Shown here piece by piece: positions 18,095 through 57,133 of a stretch of 64,000 nt of DNA (its first letter is position 1; every line of letters starts with the position of its first letter). The notes beneath the pieces are model-generated. The model did not search any database. It was not told the origin of the DNA and worked only from the letters and a program-made list of their open reading frames with translations. The DNA is from Acidobacteria bacterium Ga0077534 (GTDB taxonomy: Bacteria > Acidobacteriota > Blastocatellia > Pyrinomonadales > Pyrinomonadaceae): contig LNEI01000008.1 in assembly GCA_001464455.1 (NCBI GenBank), positions 1 through 64,000 on the forward strand. Direction: 5' to 3'. The position numbers and the translations under genes are program-made.

Positions 18095-18109
18095 ATATCT
18101 CCTGTCGAA

Positions 18110-18178
18110 GTGGTCAGCGGTCAGTGGTCAGTGGTCAGCTGTTATTCTGACCACTGGCCACCGACCACTGACGACTGT
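18110..18178. repeat. intergenic palindromic repeat, GGTCAGTGG family, copy 2
   Basis: The left arm has tandem GGTCAGYGG units (about 18112-18139). The right arm (about 18147-18175) is the complement with CTGACCACTGGCC and GACCACTGAC. It fills the whole rplI-rpsR spacer inside a ribosomal operon. Confidence 0.75.
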
Positions 18179-22532: not shown

Positions 22533-23144
22533 CTACTTCCTTATCAAGAACACCTGCGTAAAATAAACCGACCCGTCCGGAGCTTTCGCTACTCCGATGG
22601 CGGATTCTTTCCAGTTCGGGTCCATCATATTGCGTTTGTGAGTTGGCGAATCGAGCCAGAGTTCGACGGCCATGGCGACTGGGTCGGCGTAACCCCGGTT
22701 AAAGGCGATGTTTTCGCCAATCGAACGCCATTTGCCTAGTTTGAGCTGGTCGGCCCGGTCGCTGACGAGCTTATTATCGAGGCCGCGGTGCGAGAAGAAG
22801 CGAAATTCAGCCATGTTTTGCGAGTGCAGACGGGCCACCGCGGCGATCTCAGCATTCCAACTCAGCGGTTCGAGTCCTTTCTCGATGCGAATACGGTTGA
22901 TCAACTCAAACGCCGCCTGCTCGGCGGACGACATGTTCACGACGACCGAGGCCTTTACGCCTGCAGCCTTTTTCGCCTTTTCGTCATCTTCGTCGTCGAA
23001 CTCGAGCAAGCCGAGCGGGTCGGAAACGTCGTTACCGGATATAAGCTTCGTTGCGACAGGTGACGGGAATTTGTTGATCTGAGCGAATGAAACGCCCGCC
23101 ATAACAGCGAACATACCAATAAGCAGTAAGAATTTTTTTGACAT
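22533..23144 (-). CDS. secreted CAP (SCP/PR-1)-domain protein
   Basis: 203 residues from the ATG at 23144, where MSKKFLLLIGMFAVMAGVSF gives a clean signal peptide. The 44 upstream codons in frame overlap a riboswitch aptamer. The C-terminal CAP domain (about 80-203) shows AFELINRIRIEKGLEPLSW, ARLHSQNMAEFRFFSHRGLD, SIGENIAFNRGYADP, WLDSPTHKRNMMDP and the end GVAKAPDGSVYFTQVF. The His/Glu positions of the CAP cavity are conserved. The extracellular role is unknown. A GGGG Shine-Dalgarno abuts the GEMM aptamer, which suggests translational control by a cyclic dinucleotide. Confidence 0.85.
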   Translation of the reverse strand: MSKKFLLLIGMFAVMAGVSFAQINKFPSPVATKLISGNDVSDPLGLLEFDDEDDEKAKKAAGVKASVVVNMSSAEQAAFELINRIRIEKGLEPLSWNAEIAAVARLHSQNMAEFRFFSHRGLDNKLVSDRADQLKLGKWRSIGENIAFNRGYADPVAMAVELWLDSPTHKRNMMDPNWKESAIGVAKAPDGSVYFTQVFLIRK

Positions 23145-23149
23145 GTTTA

Positions 23150-23232
23150 CCCCACTTCGGCAGCCGGACGAGCCTTTAGTAATGGCTTCCAAGCTTTGCG
23201 TATGCCCTCGACGGACACTTGCCTTTTCGGTT
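23150..23232 (-). promoter_or_regulatory. GEMM-I-like cyclic dinucleotide riboswitch
   Basis: On the minus strand the leader shows GGCAAG (23223-23218), the invariant ACGCAAAGC, a P3-like hairpin GGAAGCC...GGCTCGTCC and the closing CCGGCTGCCGAAG. GGCA/TGCC gives the P1 closing pairs. This is the pattern of the GEMM class, which binds c-di-GMP or, in some variants, cGAMP. The P2 loop deviates from a clean GNRA tetraloop. The RBS GTGGGG lies at the 3' edge, so control of translation is likely. A GACAAAAC/GTTTTGTC hairpin precedes it. Confidence 0.6.
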
Positions 23233-23305
23233 AAGGTGACAAAACAAAAGAGTTTTGTCTGGTAAAACATATTCACAATTCCTCTGAGATTCCGGAAAAA
23301 TATCT

Positions 23306-51198: not shown

Positions 51199-51867
51199 AT
51201 GCTCCGACTTTTACTTTTACTGATCATTGTTCCGGGTTGCATTGCCGTGGCGGCTCAGTCGCCGACACCATCGCCTTCCGACGAGACGGACGTCCAATCC
51301 TGGCACGATATATCTATCTCTCGGGCCATCAATAAAAAAGTCGATGTCGTCATACCTTTCACTTTTCGCTTCGGTAAAAACGTGACGCGCCTGAATGAGG
51401 GCCGCGCTGGCATCGGCCTGGCACTGAAGCCGCATAGCCGCATCACGATCAGCCCAACATATCAGTTTATTCGTGCGCGAAACACTGCTGGTGGATTCGC
51501 GCGAGAAAACCGGATCTCTATCGGAGCGACGTTCAAATTACCTGTTCAGAAAGTGGGCCTATCGCACCGCAGCCTTTTCGAATATCGAATACGACAAACC
51601 TCAAGATCGTGGCGCTACCGCCCATCGATCACCATAGACAAGGAACTCCCCGAACGCTGGATAAAAGGAGCTAAGGTCTACGTAACCGAAGACCCTTTTT
51701 ACGACTCCGCAGCAGGCCGGCTTTCTCGAAACCGCTTAAGCTTCGGGATAAACAAGGTTATCTCAGACAACCTCTCACTCGACCTTTATTACCTGCGTCA
51801 AGATGATCGCAATTCGACAACGTCACTTATCCACGTGATCGGCACGCACTGGCGGATCAGGCTTTGA
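51199..51867 (+). CDS. secreted DUF2490-family beta-barrel-like protein
   Basis: 222 residues. A signal peptide (about 1-20, ending VAAQS) precedes alternating beta strands as in small outer-membrane barrels: ISPTYQFIRARNT, SLFEYRIRQTSRSWRYRPSI, RLSFGINKVISDNLSLDLYY and the final VIGTHWRIRL ending in an aromatic/basic/Leu pattern. Motif spacing matches DUF2490. Function unknown. The c-di-AMP riboswitch begins 60 bases after its stop and belongs to the next transcript. Confidence 0.78.
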   Translation: MLRLLLLLIIVPGCIAVAAQSPTPSPSDETDVQSWHDISISRAINKKVDVVIPFTFRFGKNVTRLNEGRAGIGLALKPHSRITISPTYQFIRARNTAGGFARENRISIGATFKLPVQKVGLSHRSLFEYRIRQTSRSWRYRPSITIDKELPERWIKGAKVYVTEDPFYDSAAGRLSRNRLSFGINKVISDNLSLDLYYLRQDDRNSTTSLIHVIGTHWRIRL

Positions 51868-51917: not shown

Positions 51918-51926
51918 CAAAATTAA

Positions 51927-52070
51927 CTTGCCGAAGTCACCACAAATATGGGGACACGGGGGAACCAAACTTCCGTCAGTTTTCTGACGGATCGGGGCGA
52001 ATCTGAATTTCAGATGAAGACTTCTTCACTTCAAGCCCGGCAGCTAACCTCGTAGGCATTGAAGGAGAGG
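51927..52070 (+). promoter_or_regulatory. c-di-AMP riboswitch (ydaO/yuaA class)
   Basis: Conserved blocks appear in class order: TTGCCGAA, CGGGGGAACCAAA (51957-51969), a CCGTCAG/CTGACGG hairpin, GGGGCGAATC, a variable helix, then the hallmark CAGCTAACCTCGTAGGCA (52041-52058). TGCC and GGCA can close the structure. An intrinsic terminator follows 15-30 bases later. Such aptamers normally switch genes off when c-di-AMP is high. AACCTC (52046-52051) in the aptamer core can alternatively pair with GAGGTT, the 5' arm of the terminator, giving a plausible antiterminator. Confidence 0.85.
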
Positions 52071-52084
52071 GACACGTATATCGC

Positions 52085-52119
52085 AGAGGTTGTGAAGTGT
52101 GCTTCGCAACCTCTTTTTG
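52085..52119 (+). terminator. riboswitch-controlled intrinsic terminator
   Basis: The 13-bp stem AGAGGTTGTGAAG/CTTCGCAACCTCT has one G-T pair and a TGTG loop and is followed by TTTTT. It lies directly after the c-di-AMP aptamer and about 160 bases before the first gene of the operon. Confidence 0.9.
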
Positions 52120-52142: not shown

Positions 52143-52273
52143 GCTTTAAACAACCAAAGCAAGGCGAAACTAGCGTGCGCTTTAAACGCTTTAAACAAGT
52201 AAACGCTTTAAACAGCTACTTGCTTTAAAAACAACACATGCTTTAAACGACCGATCGCTTTAAACAGACGAAC
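52143..52273 (+). repeat. GCTTTAAAC repeat array with 17-bp period
   Basis: Perfect GCTTTAAAC occurs at 52143, 52179, 52188, 52205, 52240 and 52257, and GCTTTAAAA at 52222. The last five starts are 17, 17, 18 and 17 bases apart; the intervening 8-9 bases vary. The final unit ends six bases before the ATG at 52280, leaving no Shine-Dalgarno. The core TTTAAA is palindromic, so the sites could bind a dimeric protein on DNA or act in the mRNA. No match to a known element is recognised. Confidence 0.8.
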
Positions 52274-52279
52274 AGAAAT

Positions 52280-53638
52280 ATGAAAAGAATCACAATAATC
52301 GGTGGCGGAGCAAGCGGAACACTGCTCGCAGTTAATCTGGCAGCCAACGCATTGGAGAAAGAGATCGAGATCAATCTGGTCGAGAACCGGTCGAGGATCG
52401 GTCGCGGCGTCGCGTTCGGCACGACCATCGACTCGCACCTCCTTAATGTCCCGGCCGGCCGGATGGGAGCGTTTCCCGAAAAGCCCGCGCATTTTCACGA
52501 GTGGCTGATCGCAAAGGGCTATCCATACGGCGACCATGACTTTGTACCAAGGGTCAGGTACGGCGAGTATTTGCGAGAGCTTCTCTCAGAGGCGACCGGC
52601 ATCTCAAAGCCGAATCTGCGCGTGAATCTCGTCGATGACGAAGCCATTGATCTTTCCGTAAATGATGATTCTGCTGAAGTCATGCTTCGCTCGGGCGAGG
52701 TACTTCCGTCGCACGCGGTGGTGCTGGCGTTGGGCAATCACAAGCCGCCGCACCCTAGTGTCCGTGACTTAGCGTTCACATCGTCTGAGAGGTACTTTCA
52801 GGATCCGTGGAGCTCGCAGCTATACGAAACCATTCAGCCGGATGATCCTATTTTCATAGTTGGAACGGGACTGTCGATGGTGGACGTTGCTCTCCATCTT
52901 CATCGACGGGGCCATCGGGGCAAGATCTCTGCCATATCCACACGCGGATTGCTTCCCGCAGTTCACAAGCTCGGCTACTCCTATCCACCTTTTGCTACAG
53001 AGCTTAATGGTTTAGATCGAATAACGGATGTTTTGAAGGTCGTCCGTAAGCACATGAAACTTGCCGATTCGACCGGCTCCAATTGGCGAGCCGTGATCGA
53101 CAGCCTTCGGCCTGTAACGCAGGATATATGGCGTGACCTGCCCATCCCCGAAAAAAGATATTTTAAGCAGCATCTCAGCCGCTACTGGAATGTGGCACGG
53201 CACCGCATGCCACCCGAAGCAGCGGAAATCCTTAAGGAAATGCAGTCCGCCGGAACTCTTGACATCCTTAAGGGCCGTCTGAAAACGATCGAACTTAACG
53301 ACGGCGGCGAGTTCGTGATCGGCTTTCGATCTAATGGTTCGACGAATAGTGCGACGGCAAATGTCCTCGTCAATTGCATCGGTTCAGAGTCAGATTTCTC
53401 AAAGATCGATTCGCTCTTTGTTAAGAATCTGATCGCTCGCGATGTTATAAGGTGCGATGAGCTTTCTCTCGGCATCAATGCGACGCCAGATGGGAGAGTG
53501 ATAAATGGGAGCGGAACGCCCTCAAGTATCGTTTTTACCTTGGGAACGGCACTAAAAGGAATTCTATGGGAGTCCACAGCCATACCTGAGATCCGCGTTC
53601 AAGCCCAGAATTTAGCAAGGGGGTTACTAAATGACTAA
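52280..53638 (+). CDS. FAD/NAD(P)-binding protein, COG4529/YdhS-like
   Basis: 452 residues. The dinucleotide-binding motif RITIIGGGASGTLLAVNLA opens the protein. HLLNVPAGRMGAFPEKPAHF is typical of the FAD-NAD(P)-binding YdhS-like group. A second Rossmann motif DDPIFIVGTGLSMVDVALHL lies near residue 195. It is probably a flavin-dependent oxidoreductase or monooxygenase-like enzyme; the substrate is unknown. It starts the four-gene operon behind the riboswitch and repeat array and overlaps the TIM-barrel gene by 8 bases. Confidence 0.8.
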   Translation: MKRITIIGGGASGTLLAVNLAANALEKEIEINLVENRSRIGRGVAFGTTIDSHLLNVPAGRMGAFPEKPAHFHEWLIAKGYPYGDHDFVPRVRYGEYLRELLSEATGISKPNLRVNLVDDEAIDLSVNDDSAEVMLRSGEVLPSHAVVLALGNHKPPHPSVRDLAFTSSERYFQDPWSSQLYETIQPDDPIFIVGTGLSMVDVALHLHRRGHRGKISAISTRGLLPAVHKLGYSYPPFATELNGLDRITDVLKVVRKHMKLADSTGSNWRAVIDSLRPVTQDIWRDLPIPEKRYFKQHLSRYWNVARHRMPPEAAEILKEMQSAGTLDILKGRLKTIELNDGGEFVIGFRSNGSTNSATANVLVNCIGSESDFSKIDSLFVKNLIARDVIRCDELSLGINATPDGRVINGSGTPSSIVFTLGTALKGILWESTAIPEIRVQAQNLARGLLND

Positions 53639-54346: not shown

Positions 54347-57133
54347 ATGTCACAGTCATTTCTCAAAATGCTGATCGACTCCTTCGGCCAGCGGCCGGAT
54401 AAGGTTGCGATGAGGGTCGTTGGCAACGACGACGAGGTTTACACCTTTGCCGATATGCTGCAGAGGGTTCGATCGATCGCCTACCGGCTTGGGCAGGAGA
54501 ATGTCGGCTTTGGTGATCGTGTAGCCTTGATCGGTGAAAATCACCCGTCCTGGGCGATCGCTTATCTCGGGACTCTTTATCACGGAGCCGTCTGCGTACC
54601 CATGGACCCGCATGGAGAGATCGAGACCATTACGAATTTCCTCGAAAACTCCGAGGCCAAGATCGCCTTCCTTTCGCCCGATCAAACCCAGAAATTCTCG
54701 CAGATCGAGGAAAAGCTGGGACGTCATATTCCCGCGGTCGTATGGAATCTCGAAAACTCGTCAAACGGCTTCAAGAAATTCGAAGAATGGTCAGCGACCG
54801 AATTCCCCGAGAGTTTTGCGAACGAGATACCTAAAGCCGCGGGTGACGACACTGCCCTGTTGATCTACACGAGCGGAACCACCGGAAAACCTAAGGGAGT
54901 ACCGCTAACGCACGGCAACATCGTCGGCGAACTCGCAGGTGTAAACGACGTTCTTAAACTGACCGACAAAGAACGCATCCTCAGCCTTCTGCCGCTCTTC
55001 CATGCTTATCTTCAGATCGTAAACCTTTGGGTTGCGACTACCTTCGGGCCGCAGGTCGGATACCTGAAGGAGCTGACACCTGCGGAACTCAGCGAGTCGA
55101 TGAAAAAGTTCAAGCCGACGATCCTCACAACGGTTCCACGGCTTTGGTACATATTTCACAAGAAGATCTTTGACGCGGTGGAGGCAAAGCCAAAGCCTGT
55201 TCAGAGGCTGTTTCGTACGATGCTCGCGACGAACGGACTGCTTCGTGACACTTTCAAGATCAATCTCGGCCCAAAAATGTTTGGCCAGGTACACGAATCA
55301 TTTGGAGGAAACCTGCGCATCGCGATCTCGGCCGGATCGAGATTTGACGAAGCGGTGGCCGAGGATTTTCATCGGCTTGGCTTTACGATCATTCAGGGTT
55401 ACGGTCTGACCGAAACAAGCGGGGCGGCGACCGCAACTCCTGAGGACGATAACCGGGTCGGTTCAGTGGGTAAACCCATGAAGGGTGCCGAGATAAAGAT
55501 CGATAATCCAGACAAGGAAGGCGTTGGCGAGGTCTTGATCCGCGGGACGATGGTCTTCAACGGTTATTATCAAAATCCGACGGCGACGGCTGAGGCATTC
55601 ACTGAAGACGGCTGGTTTCGCTCGGGAGATCTCGGAAAGATCGACAAGGACGGTTTTTTATACATTGTCGGTCGAGGCAAAGATATCATCGTCCTGCCAT
55701 CAGGCAAGAATGTGCACCCTGAAGACCTCGAGGTCCATTATCTTAAATCGCCGATGGTCGAAGAAATGGCGGTCATCGGCCTGGCCGATGAATCGGAGGC
55801 GAGAGCCGGTGCAGAAAAGCTCGCCGCCGTTGTCGTCCCGGATTTTGCGTATCTCAAGGCCAACGGCATCGCAAACTCAAAAGAAGCCATTCGGCACAAC
55901 CTCGACAGCATAGGGCGTGAACTTCCTGAATACCAGCGCGTTCGCGACTACATCATCCGCGTTGAGCCGCTTCCCCGCACCGCGACGAATAAGATCAAGC
56001 GCTTTCAACTCAAGAAAGAGGTCGAGAGCGGCGTGATCGCAACCGAAGCAAAAGAGATAAAGGCTTGGAACTTTTCGGCCGAAGAGCAGCTCTTGGTCGA
56101 GTCGAATATCGGCCGTGCCGTAGCAGATGCCATTCGGGCGAACTCGAAAGACGTCGAGGTCGTGCATCCGAACATGAATCTCGAGATCGATCTTGGGCTC
56201 GATAGTCTCGCCCGAGCCGAGGCTTTCGCGGCTCTCGAACAGGCCTTTTCGACCGAGTTTGATGGCGAAGAAGCCGCTCAGGCACTAACCGTCGGCAATA
56301 TCATAGACCTTATCAAGAAGAACGCGGGCGAAGACGCTAGTGCAGCCTCTCTCGATCTAAACTGGGGGGAGATCGTCCGCTCAGCCGACGACGATTTTCC
56401 TGAGGTTCGTGCAGTCCTCAAGCGGCGACCGATATTCTCCGCGTTCGCATTCCTCGTCTACAAGCTCTTTAACTTGTTTTGCCGCGTTTTCATGCAGCTT
56501 GAGGTTCGGGGTGTCGACAACCTTAAGCCTCAGCTTAATTTAGCCGAGGACGGAAGTATCGCAAAGCCATTCCTGATCTGCCCGAATCACCAGAGTTTCC
56601 TTGACCCATTCGTGATCTGTTCGAACTACCCTTACCGGCTTTTCAAGAATATATTCCACGTCGGGGCAAGCGAATTCTTCGAAAGCTCGCTGATGCGGAA
56701 TATCGCAAAAATGATGAACGTCGTTCCGGTCAATCCGGACACGGAGCTGATGCGGGCGATGAAAGCCGGAGCGATCGGATTGAAGAACGGCCGTGTGCTT
56801 AATATCTATCCGGAGGGCGAACGAGCGTTTGACGGCGAACTCCACGGCTTCAAGAAGGGAGCCGCGATCCTCGCGACCGAGTTGGATATGCCGATCATCC
56901 CTGTAGCCATTGATGGTTTATATAAGGTTTGGCCGCGAAACTCGTGGCGGATCAGGCCGGCTAAGGTAAAAATAGCATTCGGCAAACCAATTTACGCCAG
57001 GGAGTTTCTCGAGATTGCTCCAGCAGGGGCGAATACGTCTCTTGAAGCGGCGTCAAATGATGTGGCCTATGAACGCGTAACGGCCCATCTCAAGCAGACG
57101 ATTGCCGACATGATCGAGGAAATGCGAAAATAA
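54347..57133 (+). CDS. acyl-CoA/ACP ligase-ACP-PlsC acyltransferase fusion
   Basis: 928 residues from the ATG at 54347; a TTG frame to 54311 overlaps the previous gene. Domain 1 (about 1-545) is an adenylate-forming fatty-acid ligase: LLIYTSGTTGKPKGVPLTHG near 172, QGYGLTETSGAATATP and SGDLGKIDKDGFLYIVGRGK. Domain 2 (about 570-665) is an acyl carrier protein with DLGLDSLARA and the phosphopantetheine Ser near 620. Domain 3 (about 700-928) is a PlsC-type acyltransferase with NHQSFLDPF (HX4D, near 746) and YPEGERAFDG. It could activate a fatty acid, load it on its own ACP and transfer it to a lysophospholipid. Confidence 0.88.
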   Translation: MSQSFLKMLIDSFGQRPDKVAMRVVGNDDEVYTFADMLQRVRSIAYRLGQENVGFGDRVALIGENHPSWAIAYLGTLYHGAVCVPMDPHGEIETITNFLENSEAKIAFLSPDQTQKFSQIEEKLGRHIPAVVWNLENSSNGFKKFEEWSATEFPESFANEIPKAAGDDTALLIYTSGTTGKPKGVPLTHGNIVGELAGVNDVLKLTDKERILSLLPLFHAYLQIVNLWVATTFGPQVGYLKELTPAELSESMKKFKPTILTTVPRLWYIFHKKIFDAVEAKPKPVQRLFRTMLATNGLLRDTFKINLGPKMFGQVHESFGGNLRIAISAGSRFDEAVAEDFHRLGFTIIQGYGLTETSGAATATPEDDNRVGSVGKPMKGAEIKIDNPDKEGVGEVLIRGTMVFNGYYQNPTATAEAFTEDGWFRSGDLGKIDKDGFLYIVGRGKDIIVLPSGKNVHPEDLEVHYLKSPMVEEMAVIGLADESEARAGAEKLAAVVVPDFAYLKANGIANSKEAIRHNLDSIGRELPEYQRVRDYIIRVEPLPRTATNKIKRFQLKKEVESGVIATEAKEIKAWNFSAEEQLLVESNIGRAVADAIRANSKDVEVVHPNMNLEIDLGLDSLARAEAFAALEQAFSTEFDGEEAAQALTVGNIIDLIKKNAGEDASAASLDLNWGEIVRSADDDFPEVRAVLKRRPIFSAFAFLVYKLFNLFCRVFMQLEVRGVDNLKPQLNLAEDGSIAKPFLICPNHQSFLDPFVICSNYPYRLFKNIFHVGASEFFESSLMRNIAKMMNVVPVNPDTELMRAMKAGAIGLKNGRVLNIYPEGERAFDGELHGFKKGAAILATELDMPIIPVAIDGLYKVWPRNSWRIRPAKVKIAFGKPIYAREFLEIAPAGANTSLEAASNDVAYERVTAHLKQTIADMIEEMRK

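Follow-up and report, generated by a model that had tools for sequence, protein, structure and literature searches.

An array of seven short direct repeats upstream of an oxidoreductase gene in an acidobacterial genome: candidate binding sites for a TTTAAA-recognizing protein

In the 64,000-nucleotide stretch of DNA analyzed here (the window), seven units of nine bases lie in the same direction just upstream of a gene for an FAD/NAD(P)-binding oxidoreductase. What keeps so many copies of one short word in front of a start codon? They could be a fixed part of the operon, a substitute for its ribosome-binding site, a tandem repeat, or a row of sites for a protein.

The array and its surroundings

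All seven units lie on the + strand within 52143-52265, six of them perfect copies of GCTTTAAAC and one reading GCTTTAAAA. In the window's own genome (G000), their start-to-start distances are 36, 9, 17, 17, 18, and 17 bases. The sequence bears out the initial annotation, which had described six perfect and one near-perfect unit with the last five spaced by 17, 17, 18, and 17 bases and had noted the lack of a Shine-Dalgarno motif; none is found within 20 bases 5' of the ATG at 52280. Its statement that the array ends six bases before the ATG needs correction, as the last unit ends at 52265 and the actual distance is 14 bases. The features of the region are as follows.

51199..51867, + strand: DUF2490 gene, the upstream neighbor in G000, also found by alignment in genome G034 (61.9% amino acid identity)
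51919..52074, + strand: c-di-AMP riboswitch aptamer (RF00379; 79 bits), upstream of the array
~52085..52118, + strand: terminator-like hairpin with a T run, recognized by inspection, between the riboswitch and the array
52143..52151, + strand: unit 1, GCTTTAAAC, with GCAAAT directly 5' of it, giving the full extended motif
52179..52187, + strand: unit 2, GCTTTAAAC
52188..52196, + strand: unit 3, GCTTTAAAC, abutting unit 2, likewise in G034
52205..52213, + strand: unit 4, GCTTTAAAC
52222..52230, + strand: unit 5, GCTTTAAAA, in which the octamer is perfect and the ninth base differs
52240..52248, + strand: unit 6, GCTTTAAAC
52257..52265, + strand: unit 7, GCTTTAAAC, with 14 bases between its end and the ATG at 52280
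52280..53638, + strand: FAD/NAD(P)-binding oxidoreductase gene (NAD_binding_9; the FAD gene), the first gene downstream, without a match in G034
54347..57133, + strand: acyl ligase-acyltransferase gene (AMP-binding, Acyltransferase), which adjoins the array in G034

The product of the second downstream gene has a weak, below-cut-off likeness to KDPG aldolases, and the c-di-AMP riboswitch with the terminator-like hairpin leads an operon of FAD, aldolase-like, and acyl ligase genes. A c-di-GMP-I riboswitch match is also present in the window (23156-23233, - strand; score 38.5 against a gathering score of 35). It overlaps the 5' end of the ORF at 22533-23276, by eye that of a secreted CAP-domain-like protein.

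Outside the array, the octamer occurs 13 times in 863.8 kb of G000, both strands counted. At this rate ~4e-20 clusters like the G000 array are expected per genome, which excludes a chance origin. A genome-wide count of the 9-mer, proposed in the initial annotation as a check, gives 16 copies in G000, six of them inside the array, and nowhere else in the 4.2 Mb assembly do two octamers occur at a gap of ≤30 bases. Tandem Repeats Finder reports only a weak 9-bp stretch at 52178-52213, and the identity between spacers is 0.34 in the G000 array and 0.39 in that of G034.

The FAD operon in relatives and the array of the sister genome

A search for the FAD gene in 60 genomes, run without the genus members G060-G063, matched 17 of them: G000 itself, 14 relatives in the genus, and two in the class. 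The start of the gene is readable in 12 genus relatives (G035 among them) and cut off in G016 and G030. All 12 have the riboswitch core 88-164 bases 5' of the start of the FAD gene, and Rfam confirmed the riboswitch in each of the four relatives' loci submitted. In the window the corresponding distance is 238, a surplus of approximately the length of the array. GCTTTAAA is absent from the 400 bases 5' of the FAD gene in all 12, and the two class relatives have neither the riboswitch core nor the array upstream of it. With the riboswitch in 12 of 12 readable relatives and the array in none, the array is no constant component of the FAD operon. Relatives with the operon and without the array, which the initial annotation had named as evidence against its proposal, are what the FAD operon presents in all 12. 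The recurrence of the array upstream of orthologous operons, which it had suggested looking for, is not seen at the FAD gene (0 of 12) and is seen in G034 at the acyl ligase gene.

G034 is the sister of G000 in the acyl ligase tree (support 100/99). Its genome (97% complete) contains no match to the FAD gene, and the 19 kb around its array no match to the riboswitch. A seven-unit array is nevertheless located between DUF2490 and the acyl ligase gene, with distances of 27, 9, 19, 17, 18, and 17 bases; 101 bases separate its end from the acyl ligase ATG. The 12 relatives without an array and the G034 array without an FAD gene rule out the array as a part of the FAD operon: it belongs to the place, not to the operon. 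In the near relatives G033 and G061, the region between an upstream kinase-like gene and the acyl ligase gene holds neither DUF2490, riboswitch, FAD gene, nor array.

The initial annotation had also proposed that the array replaces the ribosome-binding site. A Shine-Dalgarno-like motif precedes the FAD gene in nine of the 12 readable relatives. The other three, G025, G001, and G035, have neither the motif nor an array at this gene, which shows that a missing Shine-Dalgarno motif does not require the array. With the G034 array so far from the next ATG, we reject this proposal.

Between G000 and G034, 62 of the 63 bases of the units are identical. The four comparable spacers match at 11 of 33 bases and mismatched spacer pairs at 35 of 97. 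Identity at the 375 fourfold-degenerate sites of the acyl ligase gene is 35.5%, which means that neutral sequence between these genomes is saturated. The words have been kept while their surroundings changed, as would be expected of a multi-site operator. The spacing match between the arrays is only moderately improbable, with 12 of the 720 orderings of the G034 distances fitting the G000 distances equally well. The two first spacers have the stretch AAGGCG(A/G)AAC in common. Position, order, spacing, and this stretch suggest that both arrays descend from a common ancestor, the alternative being independent gain.

Distribution of the arrays and of their word

Three octamers with gaps of ≤30 bases occur in seven of 119 family genomes, G000 included, and in two of 29 genera. 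The seven genomes (G000, G034, G008, G001, G430, G431, and G432) hold ten arrays altogether. Under a stricter definition (gaps of ≤20 bases and a pyrimidine after the first two octamers), G000 is the only match in a phylum sample of 396 genomes, a sample without the other array-bearing genomes. A search for pairs within the genus matches 5 of 41 genomes; the fifth, G018, has just two octamers, hairpin-like and between convergent ORFs, and is excluded from the array counts. The near relatives G033 and G061 have no array.

The ten arrays occupy different intergenic locations. By mechanically called ORFs, six of them share the strand of the genes on either side (G000, G034, G008, G001, G430A, and G431), G430B and G430C are antisense to both neighbors, and G432 has one array between convergent and one between divergent ORFs. 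The G431 array departs from the others in being a partly inverted cluster, its octamers lying on both strands, and by eye the gene preceding it resembles a peptide deformylase gene. The genes that follow the array resemble, again by eye, rplM in G008, DUF72 in G001, and an aldehyde dehydrogenase gene in G431. The same array does not recur before orthologous genes, the place upstream of the acyl ligase gene being shared with G034 only. Distances also vary, from 11-34 bases in G008 to 20-23 bases plus larger gaps in G432, and differ in G430 as well; a geometry of 17-18 bp is therefore not a common feature of the arrays. The three G430 arrays lie within 3.4 kb and have some spacers in common, which indicates that arrays do get copied. 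Among the individual loci, L288 and L289 (G432) are related arrays with a period of 20-23 instead of 17-18 bp, and L133 and L287 (G430) are GCTTTAAA arrays next to heptamer tandem repeats of the GAAACCT and AGAAGTC types.

Across the ten family arrays, we count 58 perfect octamers and four one-mismatch copies, a census in which about three units per array are preselected, as the arrays were found via exact octamers. Spacer identity is 0.25-0.44 in 11 of 11 family rows (the second G432 array being split into two). These values and the near-miss census rule out a plain minisatellite. Together with the order kept in G034 and its spacers at the level of mismatched pairs, the census also agrees with the initial annotation's suggestion of selection on the word rather than slippage.

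For comparison, we used 77 public loci, drawn from at least 80 loci (at least 118 stretches) after exclusion of L056, L107, and L133 as family members represented elsewhere. Among the matches listed, spacer identity is below 0.5 in seven of the 79 rows from these loci, all with three or four units (L085, L080, L119, L058, L065, L074, and L091; locus G+C 0.30-0.51). The 16 public rows with at least five units have a lowest spacer identity of 0.64, again among the matches listed, and none of the eight viral rows falls below 0.75. All 19 non-family arrays with at least five units, among the matches listed, are tandem repeats.

In a word-blind scan of 1.7 Mb, at least five copies in 130 bp were reached by 24 words in G000 (864 kb), 1 in G061 (418 kb), and 96 in G430 (400 kb). 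Only GCTTTAAA, its overlap CTTTAAAC, and its reverse complement TTTAAAGC have a spacer identity below 0.6. In a control with the reversed word CAAATTTCG, the arrays of G012 and one pair in G025 are heptamer tandem repeats.

The flanks of 61 units show a preference for GCAARY at positions -6 to -1 and C at +9; these units, which include the two of G018 and an outlying one of G432, are not independent, and p-values are only a guide. The extended motif has 14 matches in 11 of the 119 family genomes, of which six belong to arrays or to G018; its reversed control has 25. Of the ten isolated 9-mers in G000, eight are inside open frames of at least 150 codons. We see no sign of a single-site regulon, the extended motif being no commoner than its reversed control and the isolated 9-mers lying mostly in ORFs.

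The core of the word, TTTAAA, is itself avoided in these genomes. By an order-4 Markov model, it ranks first for avoidance among 4096 hexamers both in the sampled 863.8 kb of G000 (166 occurrences vs 293.5 expected) and in the G061 sample (48 vs 127.2), and it ranks 16 in G430 (42 vs 67.4). For G026, an array-free member of the genus of which 200 kb were sampled, the rank is 6 of 3987. The counts in the class relative G046 are too small for a comparison. A non-acidobacterial pool, made up of loci chosen for holding the array word and with the array surroundings masked, has TTTAAA at 0.93-0.95 of expectation. Judging from the four genomes sampled, the avoidance seems to extend across the lineage without tracking the arrays; since G061 and G026 avoid TTTAAA just as strongly and have no array, avoidance and array are not tied one to one. 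Counts of the 9-mer are near the order-5 Markov expectation (3 vs 2.7 in G000, 0 vs 0.8 in G061), which shows that the avoided word is TTTAAA and not the 9-mer. A specific avoidance of the 9-mer is accordingly rejected, the contrast with the reversed word overstating it.

Candidate roles and comparison with known systems

The reading that we favor, with about even confidence, is that of a cis-acting multi-site array of candidate cooperative binding sites for a TTTAAA-recognizing protein. Each GCTTTAAAC, set in the weaker 15-base frame GCAA(R)(Y)GCTTTAAAC, would be a single docking site, recognized at its TTTAAA core by a sequence-specific protein of the bacterial family. Adjacent sites would allow cooperative assembly, and the protein would act at arrays only. 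Stray TTTAAA would be costly and would have been purged from the rest of the genome. In G000, the complex would assemble downstream of the riboswitch terminator, within the leader of the FAD, aldolase-like, and acyl ligase operon, and could block or redirect transcription into the operon; in G034, the same action would fall on the acyl ligase gene alone. All steps beyond the keeping of the array, namely protein binding, cooperativity, a shared cause of the avoidance, and an effect on transcription, are ones that we infer. The initial annotation had offered a cooperative operator or a nucleoid-protein site, which on the sequence evidence would still be the best reading; its tie to the start codon, like the ribosome-binding-site substitute, finds no support.

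If binding of this kind takes place, the array would be a cis-element kept through saturated divergence and made of the most avoided word of its host. It would imply a not-yet-described sequence-specific protein in a poorly studied phylum, and would offer a clean test of how multiplicity can confer specificity in place of motif length. To find the candidate protein, the array itself can readily serve as bait.

The strongest rival, given that the arrays are sporadic and in G430 clearly copied, is a family-specific intergenic repeat without a regulatory role, related to the heptamer minisatellites, in which a mutational or conversion-like process regenerates the octamer while the spacers drift. 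We consider it somewhat unlikely. Sporadic presence, shifting positions, the spacers shared among the G430 arrays, and the heptamer tandem repeats held by the same genomes all speak for it. The tandem repeats of the comparison set, however, keep their spacers, the same octamer is found in two genera with no other word so arrayed in 1.7 Mb, and seven units, with nearly the same spacing in both genomes, persist through saturation between G000 and G034. A family-specific chromosome-organizing or silencing system is unlikely: here, a TTTAAA-core protein, its word purged from the genome, would nucleate on relocatable arrays, of which each genome has one or a few. Such a system would be comparable to a centromere or a titration locus, with a word of its own and without a known counterpart.

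An RNA element, in which GCUUUAAAC units of the transcript bind an RNA-binding protein or a small RNA or replace the ribosome-binding site, seems to us quite unlikely. The six arrays that share the strand of both flanking ORFs and the location of the G000 array in a leader just 5' of an ATG would fit it; the two antisense G430 arrays, the two G432 arrays between convergent or divergent ORFs, and the three relatives with neither Shine-Dalgarno-like motif nor array do not. Some units of G000, G034, G001, G018, and G430 show, by eye, a hairpin with AAGC/GCTT arms and a loop of four bases, a feature that is not general. The eight of ten arrays that were folded (the two of G432 in part) are not more stable than shuffled sequence, seven having z between -1.3 and +0.1. 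The eighth, G430B, is a borderline point in favor (z -2.09, with 6 of 200 shuffles as good), though an antisense array. A cluster of methylation or restriction targets, with TTTAAA as a lineage-wide methyltransferase or restriction site and the array as an epigenetic switch, is very improbable. It would account for the avoidance of a palindrome, TTTAAA being the most avoided hexamer in the sampled stretches of G000 and G061, and Type II restriction sites are often avoided in genomes as a general phenomenon, according to one study (PMC4687349). The kept unit is, however, non-palindromic and eight to nine bases long, with a fixed G and C before TTTAAA. Equally improbable is the relic of a mobile element or integration site whose units were arm-type sites of a recombinase or transposase. 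It would agree with the sporadic distribution and with the start of four arrays (G008, G431, G432b, and G001) at an upstream stop codon or no more than tens of bases from one; yet the cores are intact where a relic should have decayed, the array region has no match in a plasmid collection, and in the viral contigs the array word forms plain tandem repeats in eight of eight cases.

The candidate binding sites can be set beside several described systems. The datA and DnaA-box clusters of Escherichia coli are chromosomal loci binding or titrating an initiator. The array resembles them as an intergenic cluster of a short word that is not a classical promoter operator and is present once or a few times per chromosome. 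The DnaA box is TTATNCACA. By direct comparison GCTTTAAAC is unrelated to it, and, unlike datA, the array differs in location between species. We found no link to replication: GC skew is weak both across the window and in 20 samples taken from G430 contig 1, and it does not place an origin or terminus. On that contig, the weak skew possibly changes sign near 1.5-1.65 Mb, and the arrays are at 1.43 Mb.

Plasmid iterons, the direct-repeat sites of initiators, repeat about every 17-22 bp and preserve a core. The array is similar in its direct repeats, period, and core, and differs in that the sequence between the cores is free and the distances vary between species; unlike for plasmid iterons, no replication gene is present among the eight neighboring proteins scanned. 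In CRISPR loci, repeats of ~21 bases or more alternate with spacers of similar length, in contrast to the 9-base units and 0-27-base spacers of G000 and G034, and no cas genes are found among the same eight proteins. SARP regulators bind heptameric direct repeats as operators, according to one report (PMC5930380). The array shares with SARP-type operators several direct copies of a short word before a gene, and differs in that a single array can have as many as nine perfect octamers, that a regulon of single sites is not seen, and that arrays occur in non-promoter places as well. Among the matches listed from the open-access literature, none describes such an element, which leaves uncontradicted the remark of the initial annotation that no element like it was known.

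Bacterial intergenic minisatellites, heptameric and others, also consist of a repeated intergenic word. In these the whole unit is repeated, whereas the array combines perfect cores with spacers at background identity. Heptamer repeats of AGTGGTC/CTGACCA are present in the window at 632-703 and 18109-18177, in facing orientation, and could form hairpins; one such pair is close to the tRNA gene at 714-784. On contig 18 of G000, GGGAGTTT is repeated 15 times at an exact 21-bp period (L349:17277 onwards), perhaps as coding repeats.
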